Source of the DNA: Chitinophaga pinensis | GTDB lineage: Bacteria; Bacteroidota; Bacteroidia; Flavobacteriales_D; Crocinitomicaceae | Assembly (NCBI GenBank): GCA_945902745.1 | Contig: CAMDNE010000001.1 | Coordinates: 186,001-250,000 of the forward strand | Direction of reading: 5' to 3' | DNA length: 64,000 bases | Shown here: positions 5,810-38,148 of the stretch, one piece after another | Layout: each line of letters starts with the position of its first letter | Position numbering within the stretch: the stretch's first letter is position 1 | Program-made: the position numbers and the translations under genes | The notes under the pieces: model-generated | Databases searched by the model: none | What the model was told of the DNA's origin: nothing | Seen by the model: the letters and a program-made list of their open reading frames with translations, nothing else

Positions 5810-5810
5810 T

Positions 5811-5851
5811 ATAAGAAGAAGGCTAGGAGATTTTCCTAGCCTTCTTCTTAT
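5811..5851. terminator. Intrinsic terminator after the formate dehydrogenase operon
   Basis: A perfect 18-bp inverted repeat (arms 5811-5828 and 5834-5851) with a 5-nt loop starts 1 nt after the fdhF stop codon. The T-rich 3' arm supports termination on the plus strand. The next gene converges from the right, so it may work in both directions. Confidence 0.85.
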
Positions 5852-5893
5852 ATTTAATTGAGTAATCGTTATGATACCGTATGACATATTTAT

Positions 5894-5999
5894 ACCCCTT
5901 TAGGGGTTATATGTTTTTAGCGCTGGATGTAATCCAGCGAAAAAAACATGAAATTATTCACTTTTTGGCATGTATTTTTTGTAAAATCATGCCAAAAAG
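5894..5999. repeat. Cluster of three intergenic hairpins
   Basis: Three inverted repeats lie in a row between convergent genes: CCCCTTTAGGGG at 5895-5906; CGCTGGAT/ATCCAGCG with a 3-nt loop at 5921-5939 followed by a run of A; and a 12-bp stem (CTTTTTGGCATG, 5961-5972) pairing with 5988-5999. A small open frame across them looks non-coding. They resemble dispersed palindromic elements plus a terminator for the minus-strand gene ending at 6039. Confidence 0.6.
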
Positions 6000-6038
6000 A
6001 TTTTGGGGTAACAAAGCGATCAGTCAATTATTTAAATA

Positions 6039-9035
6039 TCAATTCAACAAAGAACTCAATTTCAATCCTTTATTTACGATATTCATTTTTAAAGTAAATC
6101 TTATTTTTCGAGCATAATTTGATGTGCCAAAAGAGTCATTCAATTCTTGACTCATCCAAACAGGGAAATAGATTCCAAATACTTTCGCCAATCGAATTCC
6201 AACTCCTGTATTAATTGCTGAATTCAGACTTGACCCATTTGAAAATGCTCCAAAATCAGCGAATAGTCCAAAGATTCCCATTTTTGGTATTGGAAGTTGG
6301 AGGTATAAATTTCCTGTTGCCATAAAATGAGTGGTTGTACCATATCTACTTGTACTTTTAAAACCACCCATGTTTTCGTCTCTTTGTTGAGACCAAATTC
6401 CAGTATTGGCATTTCGTCCGAAGTAATAGTCTTCAAAAAACAAATCTTGTGCACCATCGCTGCCACTCAAAGACATGGAATATCTATACGTATTTGTGCC
6501 TTGCGTCAATTTTAAATTATACGTGTTACCAATAAATCCGCGAACTTCAACCCAACGTTTCATTTTATTTTTCAAGTATCGAAATTTATAACTCGCGTTA
6601 ACATTTACTCTTGCCATTTCTGCATCTTGTGCTTTTATTAAATCAGTTCTTAATGCAAAATGAACTTGGTGATCAGGTCGTGTAAAATCTACAGCGTATT
6701 TTGCAAAACCTCCTAAGTAATCTTCTTTTAATGAATTGTAAAAGTCATATTTTACAATTCCTTGAACAAGAAAATTTTGAGAAAACGGAGAATTCGTACG
6801 ATTCCCAATTTTTACGTTCCAATAAGGTGCAATCGCTAAATAAGTTCCATCACTCTTTCGAATAGTAGAACTTGAGTCCATTTTAAAAGACTTGATTGAA
6901 ACACCAAAACGAGAGATTTTTATATGTTTTTTAGGTAAACACGTGTAAGAAAATTCACCAATTCCTGAAACCATTTGTCGGCCAAAAGAATACATTGGTG
7001 CAATTAAAAACTGAAAACGATTAAATGGAACGCCATTATTATGAACTACGGCGCCAATCATAAATTTATCATACATGTTTCCCGCGATAATTGGGCTCCA
7101 AAATAAGTTATTTTTCGTCGCTTCATTATCTCCAATCAAGAATTCAAATTTAATTGGTTCAACTTTTTTCAACATGCCTTTTGAATGCCAATTGTTATTT
7201 CCACGATACATTTCAGGAATATCCTTTGTAGCATCAATGCGGACTTCATCAGCATCTTTTGTACTTAAGGATAAGGTAGATTTCTTTTCATTTGGTTCAG
7301 CCCATTTTGTTTCTACAATTTCACCATTCTTGAAAACATTCACCTCAATTGGACCATTTACTTGTCCAACATTTTTGACTGTGACAAGCGTTCCTTCTTC
7401 ACTTGTTTTTACTTTCTTTAATTTATAATCAACGTGATTACATGTTTGAATTAAATCGCCGAACAACCAACTCAAATCTTTTCCTGAAGCCTTCTCTAAA
7501 GTTGCTTTCATATCTTCAGGTTGCGGGTGTTTAAATTTCCATTCTTCGAAATAAGCATGCATGCATTTCCCAAATAATTCTTCACCCAAATAATCTTTTA
7601 AATAGTAAAATATAAGTCCCGTTTTTTGATACATGATCACGCCGTAATTCAGAGAAGAAAATTCTGCGGAATGTGTTTCTAAGGGCTGATCTTCTCCTAA
7701 AACAGCTGTCATTCGATAAGAAATATCACCCATATCATGGTGGTCTAAATCATTAAAATGAAATTTTCCTCCCAATACCATGTCTGACATTCTTTGATTA
7801 TCTGGGTATTTTGTTTGAATGTAACGCACTTCATTCAAGGTATTCATTCCTTCGTCCATCCATCCGTGAACACGTTCATTGGAACCTAAAATTCCGTAAA
7901 ACCAATTATGTCCAACTTCGTGAACGATAACAACCTCTAATTCTTCTTTAGAACTTGCATTTCCAATTACAGTGACATTTGGATATTCCATTCCTCCACC
8001 TGCGCTGATTGTTCCATCAACTGCCGTAACATTATTATACGGATAATCACCGTTCCATAAAGAATAGAAATAAGTTCCATCATTGATGTATTCAATTGCA
8101 TGTTGCCATGTGAGCGCATTATGAGGAACAAACATTGCCCAGGATGTTACTATTCTTTTTGATTCTGGCATTGAAACTTCACCTTTTAAAACAGCAAAAC
8201 GTTTGTCTGCAAACCATGCAAAATCATGTACTTTACTTTGTGTATAACGAATGGTTTTAAATTCAGAATCAGAAGGAGGGAAGATCGTTCTGCCTTTTTT
8301 GCCTTGAGATTGAGATAAATAATCACTTAATTTTTTATTGGTTTCTTCTGCTTTAGAATTTAAAAATTCTATTTCAGATTGTGTTTGTAAATCTCCTGTT
8401 GCGCCAACAATGTAGTTTTTTGGAAGTGTAATACTTACATCGAATGAACCGTATTCAGAATAAAATTCGCCTTGATTTAAATAAGGCATTTGATTCCAAC
8501 CATTCTTGTCATAGACCGCTGGCTTAGGATACCATTGGGTTATCTGATAGGATTGTTCAATATGACCAAGTCTTGATATTTTCCCTGAAGGTAGCTTGAC
8601 TTTAAAAGGAGTAGAAACTGAAAAGCGTTCACCTGATTTTAATGGTGTTGCCAAATAAAGAATGCAAATATCGATGTTCAGTGGATCTAATTCCCATTTT
8701 ACTTTTGAACCATTGATTTTGAAATCTAAAGAGTCAATATTCCCTTTGTCAGTATCATCTCCGTATTTCAATGTTGTTTGACCACCTTCATATTGTTGTT
8801 TTGCCAAGGCTGTTTTTCCATTTCTATAAGCATTGGGCCATAAATGAATATAGATTTCATTCAAATCATTAGGTGAATTATTGATATATTCAAATTCTTC
8901 AAATCCACTGATGGAATTGTTAATATCGTCCAGTTTTACTGAAATGGTATAATTTACCTCTTGTTGCCAGTATTTCTGTCCAATAGAAAATCCTGAAATA
9001 ATTGAGAGACATATAAAAAGAATCAGCTTTTTCAT
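6039..9035 (-). CDS. Exported M1-family zinc metallopeptidase with long C-terminal barrel-like extension
   Basis: A 998-residue protein with an N-terminal signal peptide (MKKLILFICLSIISGFSIGQ); the start at 9035 is chosen because an upstream ATG (9065) would put 10 residues before the signal sequence. The gluzincin motif HEVGH is at residues 372-376 and the third zinc ligand Glu395 is 19 residues later in WMDEGMN, with the M1 substrate-binding G-G-GMEYP motif upstream. The first two thirds match M1 aminopeptidases (N-terminal beta domain, catalytic domain). The last ~380 residues alternate hydrophobic and polar residues with many Tyr/Phe and look like outer-membrane beta strands. Peptide or protein hydrolysis at the cell surface or periplasm is inferred; substrate unknown. 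Confidence 0.85.
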   Translation of the reverse strand: MKKLILFICLSIISGFSIGQKYWQQEVNYTISVKLDDINNSISGFEEFEYINNSPNDLNEIYIHLWPNAYRNGKTALAKQQYEGGQTTLKYGDDTDKGNIDSLDFKINGSKVKWELDPLNIDICILYLATPLKSGERFSVSTPFKVKLPSGKISRLGHIEQSYQITQWYPKPAVYDKNGWNQMPYLNQGEFYSEYGSFDVSITLPKNYIVGATGDLQTQSEIEFLNSKAEETNKKLSDYLSQSQGKKGRTIFPPSDSEFKTIRYTQSKVHDFAWFADKRFAVLKGEVSMPESKRIVTSWAMFVPHNALTWQHAIEYINDGTYFYSLWNGDYPYNNVTAVDGTISAGGGMEYPNVTVIGNASSKEELEVVIVHEVGHNWFYGILGSNERVHGWMDEGMNTLNEVRYIQTKYPDNQRMSDMVLGGKFHFNDLDHHDMGDISYRMTAVLGEDQPLETHSAEFSSLNYGVIMYQKTGLIFYYLKDYLGEELFGKCMHAYFEEWKFKHPQPEDMKATLEKASGKDLSWLFGDLIQTCNHVDYKLKKVKTSEEGTLVTVKNVGQVNGPIEVNVFKNGEIVETKWAEPNEKKSTLSLSTKDADEVRIDATKDIPEMYRGNNNWHSKGMLKKVEPIKFEFLIGDNEATKNNLFWSPIIAGNMYDKFMIGAVVHNNGVPFNRFQFLIAPMYSFGRQMVSGIGEFSYTCLPKKHIKISRFGVSIKSFKMDSSSTIRKSDGTYLAIAPYWNVKIGNRTNSPFSQNFLVQGIVKYDFYNSLKEDYLGGFAKYAVDFTRPDHQVHFALRTDLIKAQDAEMARVNVNASYKFRYLKNKMKRWVEVRGFIGNTYNLKLTQGTNTYRYSMSLSGSDGAQDLFFEDYYFGRNANTGIWSQQRDENMGGFKSTSRYGTTTHFMATGNLYLQLPIPKMGIFGLFADFGAFSNGSSLNSAINTGVGIRLAKVFGIYFPVWMSQELNDSFGTSNYARKIRFTLKMNIVNKGLKLSSLLN

Positions 9036-9155: not shown

Positions 9156-11789
9156 TTATTTTTGAATAACAATACGCTGCTGAGCAGTCCCATTGTCTGA
9201 AATTATCTTTAATATGTATGTCCCATTGGAAATGGATGTAAGATTGAATAATACAAATGAATTTTCAATTGATTGAGCACTTACTATTTTACCGTTCAAA
9301 TCCAAACATTCCATTCTACCAGTAATTAATTGATTAAAATTAACTTGAAAAACTCCTGTTGAAGGGTTTGGATAAACTGACATAAGTATATTCTCAATAT
9401 TTTTTAATCCCGCATAATTGTCTGTTAAATCACAATTTTCATCAATTCCATTGTCGAGAATTTCTGTTGCTCCAGGATACGCATTTGGATTAGAATCATT
9501 GCAATCTCCATCAATCAATGAATAGCCAGTTCCTGGATCTTGGCAAAATAATGTTCCATTTCCTGTTCCAAATGAATCATTATCTGTATCCGTGAAATAG
9601 GCGTTATAAATTAAACCTTCATCAGAAGGACCATTACAATTGTTATCTAATCCATCGCAAATTTCTGGTGCTCCTGGATAAACTGTATTTAATGCATCGT
9701 CGCAATCATCTGAAATTGTAACATACCCTGCACCTAGGGTTGCACAAGTTGTAATTGCTAGTCCAATCATAGAGCCATGCCCATCATTATCAGCATCCAA
9801 ATAATAAGTTGTTGGTCCGATAATCAAATTGTTATTGTCATCACAATCACCAGGATTCATTACGTAACCAACTGGTTGAATACATTGAGTCAGTGTAACT
9901 AAAGCATTTCCTGTTAAATCACCATCATTATCTTGATACCACGCGGTATTAGGATTCATTAAACCATCAGTATCATCACAATCTGTATTGTCTAATACAT
10001 ATCCAAACATCGATGTACAGGTTGAAATACTTGAAGATGCATTTCCAAAACCATCAGCATCAGTATCTGCAAAATAAGTTTGTGGTGTCAATGTTCCAAA
10101 GTTTGCGATGATTCTTACATTATCGTTTCTCCAAGTTGAACCTGCACCTCCTATGTTTGTAATGTAAAATCTAAAAGTTACTTGAGTCAAGGCATCAAAA
10201 GCTGCAGTTAAATTCACAGTATCTGTTCTATCTGTAATGAGTGGTGCACCAGTTCCTAAATCAGCAACAAAATTGTCGACACTTGAACGTAAGAACCATG
10301 TCGGTGTTCCTCCAGAAGCACTTATTCTATGTGTAAAAATAATTCTGTTCAAATCTAAGGTTGAACAATCATTTGCTGTAACTGTAAATTCATTGTACTC
10401 GTTTAAATCAATTGTTCCTGTCATATTCCAAGCACTTGTGCTAAAGACGTTTGCAGCAGGGGAACAGGTTGTACCAGTTGATGCATAATCGCTAAACAAA
10501 GCATTTAATGGCTGAGCAGTAACAGATATTGACGTCATTGGACAGGCAGCAAGTTGTGTGAATTCGTACATCCCAATGTCGGTACCTAGTGAAGAAGCAT
10601 CTGAACCAGAGCAATCTTCATCAATTCCATTATCTAAAATATCAAAAGCTACTGGATTTATTAATGCATCAACATCGTTGCAATCTAACATATTAGAAAC
10701 ATATCCTACCGGTTGAGAACATGCAGTTATTGTTGTTAACGGCGTTCCATAAGTGTCGTTATCAAAATCCAAATAGTAAACATTTGTCGCTGCACCAATT
10801 GCATTATTGGAATCGTCACAATCATCGCTGTTTGTAACATAACCAACTGGTTGAACACAGCCTAAAACAGTAATTAATGGATTACCTAATCCGTCTAAAT
10901 CCGTGTCAGCATAATAGGTAATTGAACCAGCTGTGATTGTAAGATTAATTGTAATGATACTATCGCATAAAGCGGCATTTGGAATCGTATCCATATATGT
11001 TCCAGAAGATGTGTATGTTTCATCACCACTTGGAACAGTATAAGTTAAACAAGCAGATGGTGAGATTGTGTTTAACGTATTACAACTAATTGTCCAAGCG
11101 ATAGAAACATCGTCAATAGAAAGCCCGTGATCATTTCCTGCATGATTAGGGTCCTCCCATTTTAACATTAAATATTCTCCATTATTTAAAACCAATCCAG
11201 GAATTGAAATAGTGGTAAGACTAACTCTATTTGCGGGTAAATTACCGTCTAGTGCTGATGCCGCTATATTAAATATAGGACTTGCTGTCATGAGAGCAGG
11301 AACTTGAGTCCATATTGTATTAGTTCCTGGAGTTAATGATGCTATCAACGCACTACTTACTTGATAATATACTTGAATTTGTTGAGCAACTGGCACAGGA
11401 TTTCCGCCATCACGCCATTGTTCTAATGTGTATGAAACTGAAAAATTATTGATGAGTGAACCAGAGTTATTTTGAAGTTGAACCCCATGGGCACCATTTC
11501 CAAAACCTCCAGAACCTACAGTTCCTAATGCTCTTTCAAAAGCAGCAACTGTACCAAAACTATATAATTTTCCAGCATTTGACGTTCCAGCTGCGGCATC
11601 ATATACCATTGCAGCAGCAGTTGATTTTTGAGAATACCAGTTTAAAATGGTAGAATTATCTGTCCATGGAATATTTGTTCCAGTGTTGAGTAATCCATCA
11701 AAGTTTTGAGAATAACTCCCCGTTCCTGTGATAGAAACTTGAGAAAATCCAATTAATGGAAACAGTAAAACGATTAATATTTTTTTCAT
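9156..11789 (-). CDS. T9SS type A sorted surface protein with MopE-like Asp-rich modules
   Basis: An 877-residue exported protein: signal peptide ending near FPLIGFSQ, a ~230-residue N-terminal region rich in Ser/Thr/Asn resembling a jellyroll or CBM-like domain, then six ~40-residue modules of the form YYxDxDxDGxG...C...GYV...DDCDD (two before and four after a second ~170-residue globular domain), and a typical T9SS type A sorting domain starting at YPNPSTG and ending IVIQK. The Asp-rich modules resemble the putative metal (calcium)-binding motif of MopE-type surface proteins. Export by the Sec system and then T9SS to the cell surface is inferred. No enzymatic motif is seen; an adhesin or matrix role is possible. 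A TAnnTTTG-like box lies just upstream. Confidence 0.88.
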   Translation of the reverse strand: MKKILIVLLFPLIGFSQVSITGTGSYSQNFDGLLNTGTNIPWTDNSTILNWYSQKSTAAAMVYDAAAGTSNAGKLYSFGTVAAFERALGTVGSGGFGNGAHGVQLQNNSGSLINNFSVSYTLEQWRDGGNPVPVAQQIQVYYQVSSALIASLTPGTNTIWTQVPALMTASPIFNIAASALDGNLPANRVSLTTISIPGLVLNNGEYLMLKWEDPNHAGNDHGLSIDDVSIAWTISCNTLNTISPSACLTYTVPSGDETYTSSGTYMDTIPNAALCDSIITINLTITAGSITYYADTDLDGLGNPLITVLGCVQPVGYVTNSDDCDDSNNAIGAATNVYYLDFDNDTYGTPLTTITACSQPVGYVSNMLDCNDVDALINPVAFDILDNGIDEDCSGSDASSLGTDIGMYEFTQLAACPMTSISVTAQPLNALFSDYASTGTTCSPAANVFSTSAWNMTGTIDLNEYNEFTVTANDCSTLDLNRIIFTHRISASGGTPTWFLRSSVDNFVADLGTGAPLITDRTDTVNLTAAFDALTQVTFRFYITNIGGAGSTWRNDNVRIIANFGTLTPQTYFADTDADGFGNASSSISTCTSMFGYVLDNTDCDDTDGLMNPNTAWYQDNDGDLTGNALVTLTQCIQPVGYVMNPGDCDDNNNLIIGPTTYYLDADNDGHGSMIGLAITTCATLGAGYVTISDDCDDALNTVYPGAPEICDGLDNNCNGPSDEGLIYNAYFTDTDNDSFGTGNGTLFCQDPGTGYSLIDGDCNDSNPNAYPGATEILDNGIDENCDLTDNYAGLKNIENILMSVYPNPSTGVFQVNFNQLITGRMECLDLNGKIVSAQSIENSFVLFNLTSISNGTYILKIISDNGTAQQRIVIQK

Positions 11790-16319: not shown

Positions 16320-17759
16320 TCATTTATACACGCTTGCCCATTCAAGATATCGCGCATAAATGGCTTTTACGTAATTGTTTGTTCTTGCTCCTCTCATTGC
16401 TCCATTTCTCACTACCTCGTCTCTGTAGTATTCGCTTTTTGAAAGATTGGCCATCATTATCTCTACGTTATCATCCCAAATGAACGGATTTAAACCATGT
16501 TTTCTAGCAAGTCTTTGAGCATCTTCAATATGTCCTTTTCCTGCATTGTACGTTGCTAAAGTGAATTTTTCTCGTTGAGCTTTATCAGGTATTTGGCTCC
16601 AAGAAATAAAATCTTTGGACATTTTTTTCATCCCGCCTAAAATCTGAATATTTGGAGGAGAACTTGGATAAACGCCATATTTTGGACCTGTATTAGGCAT
16701 AAATTGCATCATTCCATAAGCGCCTCCAAAACCTCTAACAGTTGGGTTGAATTTTGATTCATGATAAGCTACGGAAGCCAATAGACGCCAATCCCAATTG
16801 TATTTTAAAGCGACTTCTTTGAAAATTGCATCATAAGCAGATAATTGGCCTCCTTTAAGGTTAGATTTTATTACAGTAGCATTTAGGGTTGTGTTTTTGC
16901 TGTCGAAGTATTTGTTCTTTATGTACTTGAATGTTTTTTTGGACATGAATTGATTCAGCCATTTGTCTAATCGTGCATTTAACAATGGGCTCGTTTTCCT
17001 TAAACCAAATCCGATCTTTTGTCTAACTGAAACATGAGTAGCAATATCAATATTTTCAAAAAATCTGTCATTTACCTTGGCAATATTTTCTTCAGTGACA
17101 GTGAAATCGATTAATCCTTCTGATACCATCTCAATCATTTCCTCGGTTCCAATCACACCATCTTCTTCTTCAATATAAATAGTGTCACCAATTTCATCTT
17201 GAAGATGTGAAAGACGTTGATAATTACTTGAATTTTTCCAGACATGTACTTTTTTATGAGCCAATTCTGAAATATCTCTTACGAGAAGAGAATTTATTTG
17301 TGCAGCAGTCATTTTCTCCCATCCTTCAGGTTTACGCTGAATTAATACTTGCGGCGTGCGGATGTATGGGAGTGAGAAATCAATTTGTTTTTTTCGTTCA
17401 CGTGTAATTGTGTAATTACATGCGATAATGTCACCTTCACCGTTGTTTAGCATTGGGATTAAATCGTCTAGGTTATTGACAATTTTTATTTCTAATGCAA
17501 CGCCAAGTTCATTTGCAAATTCTTTGAGCACTTCATATTCAAACCCCATTTTTTTTCCGCGATAGATGAAAAAGGAGGTAGAGCTATTTTCTGCAAGAAC
17601 AGTTAATTTACCTTTTTTTAAAATTTCTCCTAAGTCAATTGAGGTGGATGGGATTTCAATATTATCCGTTTCTTTTTTTATTCTTGTACAATTTATTGTA
17701 GCCAAGAATAAAAGGCAAACTAGTAGTATTTTAAAAAGATATGTTTTTTTTATTTTCAT
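16320..17759 (-). CDS. mltF: Membrane-bound lytic murein transglycosylase F-like lipoprotein
   Basis: A 479-residue protein with an N-terminal hydrophobic signal and a lipobox-like Cys (LATINC), a solute-binding (SBP_bac_3) domain at about residues 45-290, and a C-terminal SLT lytic transglycosylase domain with the catalytic Glu in SVAYHESKFNP followed by the GAYGMMQFMP motif and LATYNAGKGHI. MltF enzymes cleave the glycan strand of peptidoglycan, forming 1,6-anhydro-MurNAc; the N-terminal domain is thought to regulate this. Envelope location at the periplasmic face of the outer membrane is inferred. miaA follows at 24 nt and may be co-transcribed. Confidence 0.9.
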   Translation of the reverse strand: MKIKKTYLFKILLVCLLFLATINCTRIKKETDNIEIPSTSIDLGEILKKGKLTVLAENSSTSFFIYRGKKMGFEYEVLKEFANELGVALEIKIVNNLDDLIPMLNNGEGDIIACNYTITRERKKQIDFSLPYIRTPQVLIQRKPEGWEKMTAAQINSLLVRDISELAHKKVHVWKNSSNYQRLSHLQDEIGDTIYIEEEDGVIGTEEMIEMVSEGLIDFTVTEENIAKVNDRFFENIDIATHVSVRQKIGFGLRKTSPLLNARLDKWLNQFMSKKTFKYIKNKYFDSKNTTLNATVIKSNLKGGQLSAYDAIFKEVALKYNWDWRLLASVAYHESKFNPTVRGFGGAYGMMQFMPNTGPKYGVYPSSPPNIQILGGMKKMSKDFISWSQIPDKAQREKFTLATYNAGKGHIEDAQRLARKHGLNPFIWDDNVEIMMANLSKSEYYRDEVVRNGAMRGARTNNYVKAIYARYLEWASVYK

Positions 17760-30037: not shown

Positions 30038-30340
30038 GTCAGTTGCTATTCAGTAAAGAAAATTCTCAATTTTAAAACTTTTCATCCAATCAAAAACAAA
30101 CACCAGTCTGTTCGTTGCACCTTTTCAGAATTTTCTTCATTTAATTAGGTGCTTTTTTTAAAAATTATTGGCATTAACCATAACCATAACCATAACCATA
30201 ACTATCTCATTTTTATAACATAAAACATTTATTTAAATGATTTATTTACTACATTTACCCCAAATTAACCAAGGCTAGTTCAACTTTCCTCTCTCTTCAT
30301 TTGAGTCGACTTAAGACGAATCTTATAAAAGATCAACTCA
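30038..30340. other. Intergenic region upstream of the T9SS/collagen-like gene set
   Basis: No gene was recognised. It holds a hexanucleotide run (TAACCA, four perfect units and a fifth partial at 30175-30204), T-rich tracts and AT-rich sequence expected to carry the promoter of the 30341 gene. Confidence 0.6.
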
Positions 30341-30838
30341 ATGAAGAAAAACACAATCGTGTTATTTTCACTATTTGCTTCTATTTCTGTCTCAGCGCAG
30401 GAAGTTTTCTCCACGCAAGGAGAATCTTACTCCAATGCAAGTGCAAAGATCGACTTTACAATTGGCGAATTAGTGATTAACACAGGAACCGATGGAACCA
30501 ACGAGCTAACGCAAGGTTTCCACCAAACCAACTGGAACTTTGTAGGACTGGAGGATTATGCTCCCGACTACCAAGTCACTATTTTCCCCAACCCAACTCA
30601 GGATGTATTGAACATCAAGACGAGTGTGTTTGAAAATGTAACCTACACGCTGTATGATGCACAGGGAAAACTTGTTTTGCAAAACATTCTTTCTGCCGAG
30701 CAAACTCCTATTCAAGTAAGTCAATTAGCTCCAGGGGCTTATTCACTTGAATTAATTTTTGAAAACAGTAATAATGGGCCTCTGAGCTCGTCGAAGGGAC
30801 CGAAGCGTAAGACATTTAAACTAGTTAAATCATACTAA
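30341..30838 (+). CDS. Small T9SS type A sorted protein
   Basis: A 165-residue exported protein: signal peptide (ending SVSAQ), a ~60-residue region with FTIGELVINTGTDG...LTQGFHQ typical of short Bacteroidota surface proteins, and a T9SS type A sorting domain beginning FPNPTQDVLNI. The sorting domain is interrupted near its end by a short insert (about GPLSSSKGPKR) encoded by a copy of a dispersed DNA repeat at 30782-30796; the final strand TFKLVKSY is still in frame. It is 10 nt upstream of the first collagen-like gene and may be co-transcribed with it. Function unknown. Confidence 0.82.
   Translation: MKKNTIVLFSLFASISVSAQEVFSTQGESYSNASAKIDFTIGELVINTGTDGTNELTQGFHQTNWNFVGLEDYAPDYQVTIFPNPTQDVLNIKTSVFENVTYTLYDAQGKLVLQNILSAEQTPIQVSQLAPGAYSLELIFENSNNGPLSSSKGPKRKTFKLVKSY
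30782..30796. repeat. Dispersed GAGCTYGTCGAAG element inside a coding region
   Basis: CTGAGCTCGTCGAAG; the same core with one change (CTGAGCTTGTCGAAG) is intergenic at 41239-41253. Here it lies in the 3' part of the T9SS gene and keeps the frame. Confidence 0.65.
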
Positions 30839-30848
30839 TTATCAAATC

Positions 30849-32117
30849 ATGAAAAAAATACTACTCTCACTCGTTGCAGCAGCAACACTTTCATTATGTT
30901 CTTTCGGTCAAGCGCCAGAAGGCTTCAAATACCAAGCAGTCGTTCGTGATGCTGGAAATACAATCTTAAACAATCAAGCAGTTGGACTTCGCATGACGAT
31001 CCAACAAGGTGCTATTGGTGGAACAACGGTTTATTCCGAAACGTTTGCACCAACAACCAATACGTACGGTTTAGTCAATCTTGAAATAGGAAACGGCACT
31101 GTAGTAAGTGGAACATTCGCCAACATCGATTGGTCAGCAGGGCCATATTTTATGGAAACAGCTGTTGATGTTACAGGTGGAACGAACTATTCAGTAATGG
31201 GAACAAGCCAATTAATGAGTGTTCCGTATGCATTGTATGCAAAAACGTCAGGAAATGGTCAAGGTCCAGCGGGAGCTCAAGGAATCCAAGGTCCAGCAGG
31301 AGTAGATGGTACTAATGGTACAAATGGAATTGATGGTGTTGATGGTGTAGATGGTGCAACAGGTCCACAAGGTCCAATAGGAAATAATGGAGCAGCAGGC
31401 GCTCAAGGAAATCAGGGTTTACCGGGAACAAATGGTGCAGTTGGAGCGACGGGGCCAGCAGGCGCACAAGGAAATCAGGGTTTACCGGGAACAAATGGTG
31501 CAACAGGCGCACAAGGCCCAGCAGGCGCTGATGGCCAAGGAGGAGTAACGACAGCTGGTTCAGGTATAAATGTAACAGGTGCTGGAACAGTAGCTAGTCC
31601 TTATGTAGTTAGTGCAACAAGCCCATGCGGTTTAGCTATAGGGCAGACTTACCAGGGTGGAATTATCTTTTATTTAGATGCTTCTGGATGCCACGGGTTG
31701 ATAAGTGCGCCAACAGACCAATCGACATCAGCCCAATGGTGGAATGGAACCTATTTGGACACTAGAGCTTATGGAAGCGGATTGTTTGAAGGAAAGTATA
31801 ACACTCAAATGATTAATTGGAATCAAGGAGGAGCGACTTCTGCTGCTGCTATTTGCGGTAACTTATCGTTGGGAGGTTATGATGATTGGTATTTACCTTC
31901 AATTGAAGAATTGAATAAAATGTATCAAAACATAGGCCAGGGAAATGCCCTTGGATTAGGAAATGTTGGCGGTTTTGCTAATTACTACTATTGGAGTTCT
32001 ACGGAGTACGATAGCAACCTTGCGTGGATACAGTATTTCAGCACTGGTAGCCAAGTCATCAGCGCTAAGGAGGACTACTTCTACTACGGCTTTGTTCGCG
32101 CTGTTCGGGCTTTTTAA
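30849..32117 (+). CDS. DGR target protein 1: collagen-like protein with variable DUF1566/C-type-lectin-like domain
   Basis: A 422-residue exported protein. Signal peptide (ending LCSFGQ), an N-terminal ~115-residue domain ([15 protein letters not shown]...SVPYALYAK) found on Bacteroidota surface/tail-fibre-like proteins, a collagen-like Gly-X-Y stalk at about 135-230, then a DUF1566-type domain from about residue 259 with [29 protein letters not shown] and YWSSTE. The last 50 residues (from 373) are the variable repeat: their codons differ from the Asn-rich template copy at 35285 mainly where the template has A. The family fold is C-type-lectin-like, suited to ligand binding. It is about 95% alike to the next gene outside stalk and variable region. 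Confidence 0.88.
31965..32117 (+). other. DGR variable repeat 1 (VR1)
   Basis: Over the first 87 nt (31965-32051) it aligns without gaps to the template at 35285-35371 with 16 differences, 12 of them at template adenines; the other four lie in two neighbouring codons. It continues through further variable codons to an invariant end, GTTCGCGCTGTTCGGGC, at the stop codon. The invariant end would play the role of the IMH. Confidence 0.82.
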
Positions 32118-32195
32118 CTATTTATCTCCCGATAGCTATCGGGATTAACTATTTAAATATTACCGCGAAGCGGTCGATTTTTGAAAATGGCATTA
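32094..32195 (+). repeat. 102-bp perfect direct repeat, copy 1 (after target gene 1)
   Basis: Identical to 34670-34771. It spans the invariant 3' end of the target gene, two palindromes (32127-32144 and 32162-32174) and ATGGCATTA, the first nine bases of the avd-like gene that follows copy 2. It marks the boundary of a tandem target-gene duplication. Confidence 0.92.
32127..32144. repeat. Palindrome TCCCGATAGCTATCGGGA, copy 1
   Basis: Perfect 18-nt palindrome 9 nt after the stop codon of target gene 1; a second palindrome (ACCGCGAAGCGGT) follows at 32162-32174. Copies occur at 34703-34720 and, degenerate, at 38250-38267. Confidence 0.8.
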
Positions 32196-32206
32196 ATAAT
32201 CAAATC

Positions 32207-34693
32207 ATGAAAAAAATACTATTATCACTCGTTGCTATAGCAACACTCTCACTAAGCTCTTTCGGTCAAGCGCCAGAAGGCTTCAAATACCAAGCAGTCG
32301 TTCGTGATGCTGGAAATACAATCTTAAACAACCAAGCCGTTGGACTTCGCATGACGATCCAACAAGGTTCTATTGGCGGAACAACGGTTTATTCCGAAAC
32401 GTTTGCACCAACAACTAATGCCTATGGTTTAGTCAATCTTGAAATAGGAAACGGCACGCTTGTAAGTGGAAGTTTCGCCAACATCGATTGGTCAGCAGGG
32501 CCATATTTTATGGAAACAGCTGTTGATGTTGCAGGTGGAACGAACTATTCAGTAATGGGAACAAGTCAATTAATGAGTGTTCCGTATGCTTTGTATGCAA
32601 AAACTTCAGGAAATGGTCAAGGTCCGGCGGGAGCTCAAGGAATCCAAGGTCCAGCAGGAGTAGATGGTACTAATGGTACAAATGGAATTGATGGTGTTGA
32701 TGGTGTTGATGGTGTAGATGGTGCAACAGGTCCACAAGGTCCAATAGGAAATAATGGAGCAGCAGGAGCACAAGGAATTCAGGGTTTACCGGGAACAAAT
32801 GGTGCAGATGGAGCAACAGGCCCACAAGGAATTCAGGGTTTACCTGGAGTTAACGGTGCAGCAGGTGCAACAGGTCCACAAGGAAATCAGGGTTTGCCGG
32901 GAACAAATGGTGCAGTTGGTGCGACAGGTCCACAAGGAAATCAGGGTTTACCGGGAACAAACGGTGTAGTTGGTGCAACAGGTCCAACTGGAGCAACAGG
33001 ATTAACAGGCGCTCAAGGAATTCAAGGTTTACCAGGAACTAACGGTGCAATTGGTGCTGCCGGACCAACAGGTCCTCAAGGAGCTACTGGTCCAACGGGT
33101 GCAACTGGTTTAACAGGCGCACAAGGAAATCAGGGTTTACCGGGAACTAACGGTGCAGTTGGTGCAACAGGTCCAGCGGGTCCAACAGGATTAACAGGAT
33201 TAGCAGGCGCACAAGGAAATCAGGGTTTACCGGGAACTAACGGTGCAATTGGTCCAGCGGGTCCAACAGGATTAACAGGATTAGCAGGTCCACAAGGAAA
33301 TCAGGGTTTACCGGGAACAAATGGTCCAACTGGAGCAACTGGATTAACAGGACCACAAGGAAATCAGGGTTTACCTGGAACAAATGGTGCAGTTGGTGCA
33401 ACAGGTCCACAAGGACCAGTAGGAGTGGATGGAACTAACGGTGCAGTTGGTGCAACAGGTTCACAAGGTTCTGCAGGAACAAATGGTGCAGTTGGTGCGA
33501 CAGGTCCACAAGGAAATCAGGGTTTACCGGGAACAAACGGTGCAGTTGGAGCAACAGGAGCACAAGGTCCAATAGGAAATAATGGAGCAGCAGGTCCACA
33601 AGGAAATCAGGGTTTACCCGGAACTAACGGTGCAGTTGGAGTTTCTGGCGCTAACGGAACCAATGGTTTGAGTGCGTATCAAGTGTGGATTGGTTTAGGA
33701 AATACAGGTACAGAAACAGATTTTATCAATTCATTGACTGGTCCAACTGGTTTAACAGGTGCACAAGGAATTCAAGGTTTACCAGGAAATATTGGTGCAG
33801 TTGGAGCAACAGGTTCACAAGGTCCAATAGGAAATAATGGAGCAGCAGGCGCACAAGGAAATCAGGGTTTACCGGGAACTAACGGTGCAGTTGGTGCAAC
33901 AGGTCCACAAGGTCCAATAGGAAATAATGGAGCAGCAGGCGCTCAAGGAAATCAGGGTTTACCGGGAACAAATGGTGTAGCAGGCGCACAAGGAAATCAG
34001 GGTTTACCCGGAACTAATGGTGCAGTTGGAGCAGCAGGCGCACAAGGAAATCAGGGTTTACCGGGAACAAATGGTGCAGTTGGCGCAACAGGCCCAGCAG
34101 GAGCTGACGGACAAGGCGGTGTAACAACAGCTGGTTCAGGTATAAATGTAACAGGTGCTGGAACTGCAGCTAGTCCTTATGTTGTTAGTGCAACGAAACC
34201 TTGCGGCTTATCTATTGGCCAAACTTACGAGGGTGGAATTATCTTTTATTTAGATGCTTCTGGATGCCACGGGTTGATAAGTGCGCCAATAGACCAAAGC
34301 ACAGGAATTCAATGGTATAATGGAAGTTATACAGACACCTATGCTTCTGGTAGCGGCTTGTTTGATGGTGATGGAAATTGCTTTAGAATAAGAAGGTCAC
34401 AAGGAGATTGCGCAAATTGCAATGCAGCTGAATTATGTCTTGATTTAACTTTAGGAGCTTATTCAGACTGGTATTTGCCGTCAAAATATGAACTCAACTT
34501 AATGTATCGAAACATAGGACTAGGAAATGCCCTTGGATTAGGAAATGTTGGCGGTTTTGCGAGTTTCAACTTCTATTGGAGTTCTACGGAGCTCGATAAC
34601 TACGATGCCTGGAGGCAGAATTTCTTCAGTGGTGGCCAGAACTACAGCTCTAAGGACACCAACTACTATGTTCGCGCTGTTCGGGCTTTTTAA
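32207..34693 (+). CDS. DGR target protein 2: long collagen-like protein with variable DUF1566/C-type-lectin-like domain
   Basis: An 828-residue paralogue of the preceding protein with the same signal peptide and N-terminal domain but a much longer Gly-X-Y stalk (about residues 135-637). The stalk contains twelve NQGLPGTNG and several IQGLPG repeats, an 18-residue period, and one non-collagenous insert ([18 protein letters not shown]) of the type seen in tail-fibre-like proteins. The DUF1566-type domain starts at about 665 ([32 protein letters not shown]) and the variable repeat covers residues 781-828. Surface exposure with the variable domain at the tip of a trimeric stalk is inferred. avd-like gene follows 69 nt later. 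Confidence 0.88.
34547..34693 (+). other. DGR variable repeat 2 (VR2)
   Basis: Aligns to the template at 35285 with one 3-nt length difference; of about 20 substitutions up to the GGT-AAC codons roughly 14 are at template adenines. Ends in the same GTTCGCGCTGTTCGGGC as VR1. Differs from VR1 mostly at codons that are AAY or AAA in the template. Confidence 0.8.
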
Positions 34694-34771
34694 CTATTTA
34701 TCTCCCGATAGCTATCGGGATTAACTATTTAAATATTACCGCGAAGCGGTCGATTTTTGAAAATGGCATTA
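34670..34771 (+). repeat. 102-bp perfect direct repeat, copy 2 (after target gene 2)
   Basis: Identical to 32094-32195. Here its last nine bases are the true beginning of the avd-like gene. Contains the palindromes at 34703-34720 and 34738-34750. Confidence 0.92.
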
Positions 34772-35104
34772 TACTATGATTTGCCAGTTTATCGAGATAC
34801 GTATAAACTTATTTTGAAAATATTTGAGTGTACCAAAGATTTTTCAAAGGAATATAAATACACCTTGGGGCAAGATATGAAGCGTGATGCCTTACAACTA
34901 GTAAGAAGTATTTATAGAGCAAATAAATCAACCAATAAAATGGAGCATTTAGAAGCCTTTATGGATGATTTTGAATTATTGAAATTAGAAATTCGCCTAT
35001 GTGTAGATATGAAAATACTAACCATTAAAAAGCAAGCAGAAATTAGTTTGTTAATGGATGGTATTGGTAAACAAATTACAGGTTGGCGTAATAGTCAGCC
35101 TTAA
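34763..35104 (+). CDS. avd: Four-helix-bundle protein, DGR accessory variability determinant (Avd)-like
   Basis: A 113-residue basic, all-helical protein of the four-helix-bundle/S23 family: YDLPVYRDTYKLILKIFECTKD, then LGQDMKRDALQLVRSIYRAN, FELLKLEIRLCVDMKIL and a C-terminal IGKQITGWRNSQ. The family contains both rRNA intervening-sequence proteins and Avd, which binds the reverse transcriptase and the template RNA in DGRs. Position between a variable target gene and an Asn-coding template favours Avd. The ATG at 34763 is preferred over a TTG two codons earlier. The first nine bases also appear after target gene 1, so the gene edge was the breakpoint of a duplication. Confidence 0.82.
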   Translation: MALYYDLPVYRDTYKLILKIFECTKDFSKEYKYTLGQDMKRDALQLVRSIYRANKSTNKMEHLEAFMDDFELLKLEIRLCVDMKILTIKKQAEISLLMDGIGKQITGWRNSQP

Positions 35105-35284
35105 TAATGCCAGAATCGCTGTTGTTAAGGTGGCAGTGAGTGAGCAAGTTTTAGTTTAAAAGCGATAAAGGGACTGTTTGCAAAAGCAGTTAAAACGAGC
35201 AAAGTTCTTTTCTTTTCAGAAATGAACCGAGCTTTAATAAGTGCAAGATGCCTTGTATTTAGATAAACACCTTTATTAAATGTG
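35105..35284 (+). other. Spacer between avd and the template repeat
   Basis: No gene. In known DGRs the template RNA includes sequence upstream of the TR, so this stretch (with a T-rich TTCTTTTCTTTTCAG tract at about 35200-35220) is a candidate 5' part of such an RNA. The only open frames are short and on the opposite strand. Confidence 0.5.
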
Positions 35285-35388
35285 GTTGGCGGTTTTGCTA
35301 ATAACAACTATTGGAGTTCTACGGAGAACAATTATGATAATGCGTGGAAACAGAATTTCAACAATGGTAACCAGAATAAGAAAAACCG
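35285..35388 (+). other. DGR template repeat (TR), 3'-truncated
   Basis: Starts with the same GTTGGCGGTTTTGCTAA as VR1 and reads, in the target frame, as an Asn-rich peptide (NNNYWSSTENNYDNAWKQNF then NNGNQN). Constant codons (YWSSTE, AW.Q.F..G) are kept while variable codons are AAC/AAT/AAA, as in templates of adenine-mutagenic DGRs. It has no promoter or start codon of its own and runs into a stop. The part matching the last ~65 nt of the VRs, including GTTCGCGCTGTTCGGGC, is absent. Confidence 0.85.
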
Positions 35389-35529
35389 ATAGGTTTTAAG
35401 GGCCTGAAAGGCAAGTTTGTTGCAGGTGTTAAAAGATATAATATGTAAAGTATATTTTATATAATATGTAAAGCAAAAATAGTATAAAGTGTAAAATAAT
35501 ACTATATTTGTGAAAGAAAAATAAAGTGT
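35389..35529. other. Region after the template where a reverse transcriptase is expected; none found
   Basis: Only ~140 nt separate the template from the next gene. A short open stretch (35392-35448, GFKGLKGKFV...) is not recognisable as RT. Two 14-nt direct repeats TATAATATGTAAAG (35437-35450 and 35460-35473) and a -7-like box precede the ATPase gene. Confidence 0.6.
35503..35510 (+). promoter_or_regulatory. Candidate -7 promoter box of the DUF4143 ATPase
   Basis: TATATTTG, matching TAnnTTTG, 19 nt before the ATG at 35530. The two TATAATATGTAAAG repeats lie just upstream and could be operator sites. Confidence 0.45.
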
Positions 35530-36795
35530 ATGTCATCACAACTTTCCTATATAGCGCGTATTTCAGACGAAGAATTGAAACGGAAATTAAATGCTTCAGG
35601 CGCCTTATTAATTCGTGGCATGAAGGCCTGTGGTAAAACACAATCAGCGAAGCAACTTGCAGCGAGCATCATCTCTTTTGATCAAGATGAACAGGTTCCA
35701 TTGCTGATGGAAACAGCTCCACAGCGCTTGTTACTTGGAGAAGCACCCCGCTTGATTGATGAATGGCAAGAATACCCTAAAATTTGGAATTATGTGAGAC
35801 ATGAAGTGGATCAACGAAATAAAACGGCTCAATTTATTTTAACGGGTTCCTCAAATCCAGAGGAAAGTGTAAAAATGCACTCCGGTGCAGGAAGATTTAC
35901 GGTATTGGATATGCGCACAATGAGCTGGCAGGAAATGGGACATTCAACTGGTGAGATCAGCTTGGGTAAATTATTAAATGGAATTAATCAACAAACGAGT
36001 GACACACCAACAGACCTTGAATGTATTGTAGAGCGAATTATAAAAGGAGGATTTCCCGGCTTACTGAATAAAAGTTTAGCTCAGGCAATGGAAATCAATC
36101 GTGCTTATGTTGATTTGTTATCAGAAGTAGACATGAGTCGCGTTTCAGATGTTAAAAGAAATCCCGAGAAAGTTCGTGGTCTACTGCGTGCACTTGCGCG
36201 CAATGTAGCAACAACTGTTGATATAACAGTGCTAGAGAAAGATGTTAAACTAAATGAAAACACGGATGTTTCTCGTCCCACAATTTACGATTATTTAGAA
36301 GCCTTAAATCGGTTGATGATACTTGAAGATCAACCAGCATGGAATACCCATATCCGATCATCCGCTTCTCTGCGTAAATCCGCTAAACGTCATTTTTCAG
36401 ATGTTTCCCTTGCCGTAGCTTCATTAGGAATAGGAAAAGAAGCCTTGATAAATGATTTAAAATTAACAGGTTTTTTGTTTGAATCATTAGTTATTCATGA
36501 TATGCGAGTTTATGCACAAGCGAATGACGCTAAAGTATATCATTATTATGACTCAACTGGTTTGGAAGTAGATGCTATTGTGCAAAAGTACACTGGCGAA
36601 TATTGTGCTTTTGAAATTAAATTAGGAATCGGGCAAATTGATGAAGCAGCAAAAAACTTATTAAAATTTGCTTCAATTATAGAAGAGTCAAGTAGAACAA
36701 AGTTACAATCATTGAATGTGATTACCGGCACTGGTATAAGCTATACTCGAAATGATGGAATTAATGTAATTGCACTTTCTTCGCTTGGTTTCTAA
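35530..36795 (+). CDS. AAA_14/DUF4143 family ATP-binding protein
   Basis: A 421-residue P-loop protein with Walker A RGMKACGKTQSA (Lys36), Walker B-like PRLIDEWQEYP, sensor FILTGSSNPE and a C-terminal DUF4143 domain (TIYDYLEALNRLMILEDQPAW..., then a PD-(D/E)XK-like EVDAIV...AFEIKLG segment). This family is abundant in Bacteroidota and archaea, often with mobile or defence islands; its role is unknown. The C-terminal Glu-Val-Asp...Glu-Ile-Lys pattern looks nuclease-like. It occupies the place where the DGR reverse transcriptase would be expected. Confidence 0.88.
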   Translation: MSSQLSYIARISDEELKRKLNASGALLIRGMKACGKTQSAKQLAASIISFDQDEQVPLLMETAPQRLLLGEAPRLIDEWQEYPKIWNYVRHEVDQRNKTAQFILTGSSNPEESVKMHSGAGRFTVLDMRTMSWQEMGHSTGEISLGKLLNGINQQTSDTPTDLECIVERIIKGGFPGLLNKSLAQAMEINRAYVDLLSEVDMSRVSDVKRNPEKVRGLLRALARNVATTVDITVLEKDVKLNENTDVSRPTIYDYLEALNRLMILEDQPAWNTHIRSSASLRKSAKRHFSDVSLAVASLGIGKEALINDLKLTGFLFESLVIHDMRVYAQANDAKVYHYYDSTGLEVDAIVQKYTGEYCAFEIKLGIGQIDEAAKNLLKFASIIEESSRTKLQSLNVITGTGISYTRNDGINVIALSSLGF

Positions 36796-36963: not shown

Positions 36964-38148
36964 TTAAATAATCTGTCCTGCCCACAATTTTTCTAAAAAA
37001 TCTTTCCACGGAAGGATCAGAATTGTATCTACTATTCTTGGCAAGGGTTCTGTGCACACTATAATCGCTTTTTTTACCTCATATTCCTCTTTGAAAGCTT
37101 TTAATCCTGTGAGGTGTTTTGATGTAATATTATTTGAAGATTTTATTTCTATAGCAACTTCATTGTGTCCTAAAATAAAATCCACTTCAATTTGTGTCGC
37201 TGTTCTCCAATACGAAATCAGGTATTCTAAGCCTGAATAGTGCTTGTGTGCTATTAGTTCTTGAAAAATAAAGGACTCAAAAGCGTGACCAAATAATTCA
37301 CTTCCTTTTTCTATTCTTCCTCGATGAAGTAAATTATTTGCAATTCCTACATCAAAAAAGTAAAATTTAGGAGTCTTAACTACGCGTCTTTTTGGCTTTC
37401 GTTGATACACAGGAATAAAATACCCCAACAAGGTGTCTTCCAAGATTTGAAAATATTCTTTTATGGTAATTGCAGAAACACCGCAATCTGCTGCGATATT
37501 AGTATAATTTACCATTTCACCCTGACTAAATGCAGCGGCATGTAAAAATTTTGAAAACACATCTACTTTTCTAATCTTAGCTTCAGCTACGATTTCATCT
37601 TGCAGATAATTGCCTATGTAAGATGAAATTAATCGTTTTGGTTTTTTTGATAAATAATGTCTTGGAAGCAATCCATTATTCAGTGCTCTATCCAAATCAA
37701 AATTTGGGATTTCTTTATAGGTTAGTGGATATAATGAATATTTTAATGCTCTTCCCCCCAACAAATTTTCTCCAGAACGAATAATTTTTCTAGGACTTGA
37801 ACCGCTTAATATAAATTGGATATTATGGTTCACGATGAGCCAATGAACTTCGTTTAATAAAATTGGAATGCGCTGAATTTCATCAATGATTACACGTTTT
37901 TTTTCTTGAGCTAAAATTGTTTCTCGAAGGTATTCAGGATTTGTAATCAATCGTTTATAAACATCTGAAAGTAATAAATCGAATACTAATGCTCCAGGAA
38001 AGAGCGTTTTAAGTAAAGTACTTTTCCCTGTTTGACGAGCACCCCAAAAAAATATACTCTGTCCATCATTATCGATAAAAACTTGCTTTCTTACTAAATC
38101 CATCGCTAATAATTTATACAAAGCTACAAAATTTTTATGTAAATCCAA
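36964..38148 (-). CDS. AAA_14/DUF4143 family ATP-binding protein
   Basis: A 394-residue relative of the preceding ATPase on the opposite strand: Walker A FFWGARQTGKST, Walker B RVIIDEIQRIP, sensor FILSGSSPRKI, a winged-helix-like middle (YTNIAADCGVSAITIKEYFQIL) and a C-terminal EVDFILG...AIEIKSS segment like a restriction-endonuclease-type fold. The two proteins are clearly different subgroups, not recent duplicates. Tandem 32-nt repeats lie directly upstream of its start. Function unknown. Confidence 0.88.
   Translation of the reverse strand: MDLHKNFVALYKLLAMDLVRKQVFIDNDGQSIFFWGARQTGKSTLLKTLFPGALVFDLLLSDVYKRLITNPEYLRETILAQEKKRVIIDEIQRIPILLNEVHWLIVNHNIQFILSGSSPRKIIRSGENLLGGRALKYSLYPLTYKEIPNFDLDRALNNGLLPRHYLSKKPKRLISSYIGNYLQDEIVAEAKIRKVDVFSKFLHAAAFSQGEMVNYTNIAADCGVSAITIKEYFQILEDTLLGYFIPVYQRKPKRRVVKTPKFYFFDVGIANNLLHRGRIEKGSELFGHAFESFIFQELIAHKHYSGLEYLISYWRTATQIEVDFILGHNEVAIEIKSSNNITSKHLTGLKAFKEEYEVKKAIIVCTEPLPRIVDTILILPWKDFLEKLWAGQII

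Follow-up and report, generated by a model that had tools for sequence, protein, structure and literature searches.

Does the 64,000-nucleotide stretch of DNA analyzed here (the window; G000:C1:186001-250000) carry a diversity-generating retroelement (DGR) that still rewrites its target genes, or what is left of one? The window belongs to a 3.46-Mb assembly of 54 contigs that is 99.85% complete. At the locus in question, two target genes (T1 and T2) are followed by an avd gene and by a template repeat (TR) that resembles the variable regions (VRs) at the 3′ ends of both targets and lacks a 3′ end of its own (Table 1). We conclude that this locus very probably preserves the remains of an avd-type DGR, which once diversified the C-type-lectin-like tips on two exported proteins with collagen stalks. 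The element is best read as inactive, and its tips as probably frozen, because both the reverse transcriptase (RT) and the TR 3′ end are missing. An initial annotation of this DNA had proposed a probable DGR with hypervariable tips; its DGR anatomy and past rewriting stand, but present activity does not.

The differences between template and targets are concentrated at the adenines of the template. In direct comparisons with the local TR, VR1 differs at 12/31 adenines and at 4/57 other positions (p 4e-4), VR2 differs at 14/31 adenines and 6/58 other positions (p 3e-4), and the VR of another species of the genus (G021) differs at 14/31 adenines and 0/58 other positions (p 3.5e-8). With the counts reversed, differences fall at 2/21 and 1/18 of the adenines of the targets. 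These adenine-directed differences show that a TR served to rewrite the targets, and they agree with the initial annotation, which had expected such a bias and had placed an asparagine-coding partial copy of the variable 3′ end behind avd, where we find it (35286–35374). Because the G021 VR departs from the window TR at adenines alone, the TR version now stranded in the window was probably once in use in the genus. As it stands today, the local TR was not the last template of VR1 and VR2, given their non-adenine differences from it. Both VRs are near-identical to the TR of a relative, L105, outside adenines, while the portion of the Lcl_C domain that precedes the VR is only 73.4% identical between T1 and T2, suggesting that the two tips were rewritten from one kind of template. 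Unbiased adenine counts come from such direct comparisons of VRs with the local, L105 and L087 TRs, and not from our TR/VR scans of relatives' loci, which left template adenines free, tolerated at most four other mismatches and thus return adenine-biased pairs by construction. The scans reported a pair in 29/36 loci of one set and 38/44 of the other; the L124 pair among the 29 was set aside, as it lies inside its own target.

Table 1 Features of the DGR locus and its upstream neighbor (window coordinates)
Feature	Position	Strand	Remarks
Small exported protein with type IX secretion sorting domain	30341..30838	+	Conserved neighbor upstream of T1; Por_Secre_tail PF18962, 45.2 bits
Target gene T1	30849..32117	+	422 aa; signal, N-terminal domain, collagen-like stalk 31263-31550, Lcl_C tip 31713-32099
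Variable region VR1	31965..32117	+	Versus L105 TR: 26/57 adenines changed, 3/89 other positions
Flank 3′ of VR1	32118..32195	+	78/78 identical to 34694-34771 (3′ of VR2); holds hairpin and first three avd codons
Hairpin ACCGC-GAA-GCGGT in VR1 flank	32162-32174	+	Part of flank 32118..32195
First three avd codons copied behind T1	32187-32195	+	Part of flank 32118..32195
Target gene T2	32207..34693	+	828 aa; plan of T1, longer stalk 32621-33673 + 33740-34126, Lcl_C tip 34292-34684
Variable region VR2	34547..34693	+	Versus L105 TR: 24/57 adenines changed, 4/89 other positions
GAA-triloop hairpin between VR2 and avd	34738..34750	+	Likely target-site cis-element; relatives' loci enriched for C(GNA)G hairpin
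avd	34763..35104	+	Complete open reading frame, 113 aa; bAvd PF22296 84.2 bits (cut-off 40)
TR stub (template repeat without 3′ end)	35286..35374	+	Asn codons at many sites where targets vary
Probable eroded rest of TR 3′ end	35375..35440	+	Gapped fit to L086 TR end; RT gene expected next, as in relatives, is missing

The TR at the locus is not full-length: the 3′ end that a TR has in common with its VRs is gone, and alignment to the complete TR of the relative L069 ends at 35385, inside the repeat. The match of 35375–35440 to the L086 TR end contains several gaps and scores 35.7, which none of 500 shuffles reached, although the margin is narrow (shuffled maximum 34.9). No second TR was found in the own genome, where the TR is present once among matches up to E 10; of the 16 further matches, four are VRs (VR1, VR2 and two on contig C25) and twelve have E ≥ 0.3. 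Likewise, neither the RVT_1 profile nor the L069 DGR RT as query detected a DGR-type RT in the assembly, and the window holds no RT match. RVT_1 matched just two genes of the genome, 183 and 193 kb from the locus, which were rejected as the missing enzyme: their family scores are retron-type, and their motifs (LPQGSPSSP and LPQGAPTSP, of the form QGxxxSP) lack SQ, the dipeptide given as a mark of DGR RTs in the accessible text of PMC3521204. Both genes, about 10 kb apart, lie in an apparently defence-rich region (L022, G000:C1:398000-417900; 6275-7957 and 16634-17746, + strand). Across the other 25 genomes of the genus, the L069 RT returned just two matches, both poor: one of E 6.9e-9 (30% identity) and one of E 0.127. 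We also discarded a short frame near 35386–35440 as the end of a lost RT: 35385–35530 scored 27–44 against five relatives, and for one of these the shuffled maximum reached 55. The initial annotation had made its proposal depend on a DGR RT in this or related genomes; this genome yields none, but in relatives an RT directly follows the TR.

Such relatives reveal the arrangement that the window would once have had. Matches to avd at E ≤ 1e-8 occur in 23 of 349 genomes of the order, the own genome included, and an RT with the IGNLTSQ motif is encoded in 10 of the 15 stretches fetched around them. The nearest complete cassette found belongs to a member of the same family, the Flavobacteriales metagenome-assembled genome (MAG) JR-MC-I-240519-72 (G353; L069 and L087 both denote this locus). 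It aligns with window 34548–35385 at 88.6% identity before homology ends inside the TR, and runs from avd through a complete TR and a hairpin to a 408-aa RT with IGNLTSQ and then YVDD. Like the window, this cassette has a collagen-stalked Lcl_C target, hairpin, avd (91% identical) and TR in the same order; unlike the window, it has a whole TR and an RT. Decay also marks the nearest relatives. L086, whose avd is the closest among the named loci (97%), has a whole TR, but a stop interrupts its avd and its RT breaks off after 54 aa; in G021 the target is collagen-stalked, avd is shortened, and no match to the RT was found. Among the best 80 of 146 loci encoding an avd relative (L086–L165), the RT is open in 56, partial or split in 10 and without trace in 8, with 6 loci too short to tell. 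As L123, counted among the split ones, has one open 522-aa frame, an open full-length RT is missing from 17 of the 74 avd loci with enough sequence, a number that draft-assembly frameshifts may inflate. Right behind the relic, at the place of the relatives' RT, the window has two AAA_14/DUF4143 ATPase genes (35530-36795, + strand; 36964-38148, − strand).

The avd-like gene that the initial annotation had noted directly after the targets is a true avd by its PF22296 score; on the NCBI Avd equivalog model, whose cut-off is 80, it falls short with 69.4 bits. Another avd-like match in the genome (G000:C1:273935) is weak and, at 23.9 bits, below cut-off. Between the window and L087, avd has a dN of 0.041 and a dS of 0.306, and was therefore constrained for most of their divergence, values that speak to past rather than present constraint. 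As the frame is also open, any decay of avd would be recent.

The hairpins that follow both window VRs, each with a triloop and a 5-bp stem, likely represent the target-site cis-element of the DGR. A hairpin with a C-G closing pair and a GNA triloop lies about 13–65 bases before avd in 39 of the 78 loci (from L086–L165) with enough upstream sequence, whereas just 40 of 4800 windows drawn at random from these loci contain one; related loci are not independent, however. Stem sequences vary among these hairpins while pairing is kept (ACCGC, TCCGC, CCCGCC, CCCACC, TGAGGCAGC and others). They could be the counterpart of the hairpin of phage DGRs, but the phage form, as described in the accessible text of PMC3240598, has a 7–10-bp stem and a GRNA tetraloop. 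The palindrome CCCGATAGCTATCGGG, found 3′ of both VRs, was rejected as the target hairpin, because it has a third site in the genome and is present in 0/80 of the loci L086–L165.

As exported fiber proteins with a collagen-like stalk, T1 and T2 most likely serve as adhesins. Pfam scores (Collagen 51.5 and Lcl_C 49.8 bits for T1; 242.9 and 47.5 bits for T2) and the numbers of Gly-X-Y triplets (32 in T1; 117 + 43 in T2) match the initial description of tandem exported paralogues with a common N-terminal domain, a Gly-X-Y stalk and a DUF1566 end. The two genes are 93.7% identical in DNA across the signal and N-terminal domain, for which a search of solved structures with the T1 domain gave nothing credible (best E 0.16). 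The pair is the product of a tandem duplication beside avd: the 78 bases after T1 are those after T2, three avd codons included. The initial annotation had noted neither this duplication nor the loss of the TR 3′ end nor the two VR-like 3′ ends on contig C25. Upstream, the conserved neighbor and the start of T1 (window 30197–31519) align with L069 6922–8216 at 78.8%, and window 30393–31309 aligns with G021 (L075) at 75.1%.

The tip, whose coding sequence ends in the VR, is confidently predicted to have the C-type-lectin-like fold of the Legionella protein Lcl, in keeping with the lectin fold that the initial annotation had proposed to model. The AlphaFold model of the T1 tip, built from a 22-sequence alignment, has a mean pLDDT of 90.9. 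The solved structure that it matches best is 8q4e, the tip of Legionella Lcl, with a Foldseek E of 3.4e-8 and a VIA Z of 16.5 (2.5 A over 125 residues), followed in VIA by 4eps (Z 11.5) and Bdellovibrio Bd2740 (8oks; Z 10.7). Similarity to Mtd and TvpA is below the tool's meaningful level (Z 7.3) and possibly reflects a common arrangement only.

Several observations weigh against an inactive element. avd retains a complete frame, which was constrained through most of the window–L087 divergence, the VRs fit the L105 TR better than the local one (3/89 and 4/89 versus 4/57 and 6/58 non-adenine differences), and an assembly in 54 contigs leaves room for an RT in a gap. All three would suit a DGR that is still active, whose full TR and RT fall in a gap of the assembly or on a contig that was lost, the local stub being a spare copy. 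We nevertheless consider this unlikely, since the assembly is so nearly complete, the contig is continuous across the relatives' RT place, neither an RT nor a second TR was found elsewhere in the assembly, and decay is seen in the nearest relatives also. Alternatively, an RT could be supplied at times by another element or a phage, for which avd, targets and hairpins are kept. Such help would explain the persistence of avd and the target hairpins as well as the hairpin borne by a remote target on C25, and closely similar avd genes in distant phyla indicate that elements of this kind move. Even so, a helper is very improbable: by the known mechanism, any RT would need the 3′ end that the TR has lost, and one scan of viral contigs with the L087 RT returned a single relative at 43% identity, a result that also led us to drop a phage origin of the element. 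Finally, the partial, non-coding nature of the copy at 35286 is what would be expected of a stray target-gene fragment with no DGR involved. We find this scarcely credible, as the differences are directed to the adenines of the copy and not to those of the targets, avd lies next to the copy, a complete TR and RT occupy the orthologous place in L069, and the idea is already contradicted by the comparison with the G021 VR, in which 0/58 non-adenine positions differ.

We thus favor a DGR relic, and propose the following history from what is known of DGR mechanism. In the working element, RT together with Avd would have reverse-transcribed the TR RNA, making errors at its adenines, and the resulting cDNA would have replaced the VR of a target bearing the downstream hairpin. 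This lineage has since lost both its RT gene and the TR 3′ end, and is left with avd as an orphan, the stub of a TR and two targets that now change at their tips by ordinary mutation only. The window could therefore be read as a history of TR use in the genus, target duplication and then RT loss.

More broadly, this kind of DGR is already known, but collagen-stalked targets are new here. In accessible text, DUF1566 is described as a DGR target domain with a C-type lectin fold (PMC4159848, PMC6642488), and the collagen + DUF1566 protein plan has been published as well (PMC11162425). The DUF1566 targets of human microbiomes and genomes resemble T1 and T2 in having the VR at the 3′ end and a predicted C-type lectin fold, but the available portions of both reports mention no collagen stalk. 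Legionella pneumophila Lcl, a collagen-like adhesin, shares the collagen stalk and the Lcl_C/DUF1566 tip, but has a different N-terminal domain (95.5 bits on NCBI model NF046116, cut-off 500), and the accessible text of PMC11162425 reports no DGR and does not contain the word 'diversity'. The mosaic adhesive trimer fibers of Bdellovibrio differ in that their N-terminal model NF053851 scores only 32.5 bits here (cut-off 60), and 'collagen' is absent from the main text of PMC10769870 in its available form. We found no account of collagen-stalked DGR targets in the literature searched, which included few subscription papers.

A collagen stalk, Lcl_C tip, adenine-biased VR and open RT occur together in 5 of the 80 relatives' loci (L087, L090, L105, L106 and L113), two with a score under the Pfam cut-off (L105 Collagen 26.7, cut-off 27.2; L106 Lcl_C 30.6, cut-off 34.9). 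The hosts are Flavobacteriales or Bacteroidetes MAGs and methanotroph MAGs (Methylovulum, Methylococcaceae), and the open RTs make the combination of stalk and DGR directly testable. In L103 and L133, avd has collagen-like genes next to it, but there is no RT trace. We tentatively raise the possibility, itself rather doubtful, that collagen-stalked lectin tips form a distinct, horizontally spread class of DGR targets, in which an element arrives, diversifies trimeric stalked fibers and dies in place, recurrent RT loss locking successful tips and leaving frozen repertoires beside an orphan avd. Animals, too, have lectins on collagen stalks, which offer a comparison for a stalked lectin-like tip. 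If our reading is correct, bacteria would possess an analogue of these proteins with hypermutation built in: a retroelement-rewritten lectin-like tip at the end of a collagen stalk whose length varies.

Three further Lcl_C genes lie elsewhere in the genome. The one on contig C34 (L030, G000:C34:1-15000; 4051-7476, + strand) encodes 1141 aa with a caspase domain, a WD40-like region and Lcl_C at the end, and has no detectable match to the TR. Contig C25 (L029, G000:C25:26000-37721) carries two Lcl_C-ended genes with VR-like 3′ ends (9622-10932 and 11051-11722, − strand). Against the L087 TR, C25a differs at 26/57 adenines and 10/89 other positions and has ACCGC-GGA-GCGGT downstream; the bias is weaker for C25b (24/54 and 20/88, p 0.006), by which no hairpin of the C25a type was seen in the stretch read. 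Both C25 genes, which have an Hsp70 gene and paralogues with an FKBP or WG-repeat end in their vicinity, are possibly intracellular DGR targets of a chaperone-linked system. Beside the Hsp70 gene, a long frame of short EIHGVYTAE-type repeats occupies L029 2-2002 (− strand).

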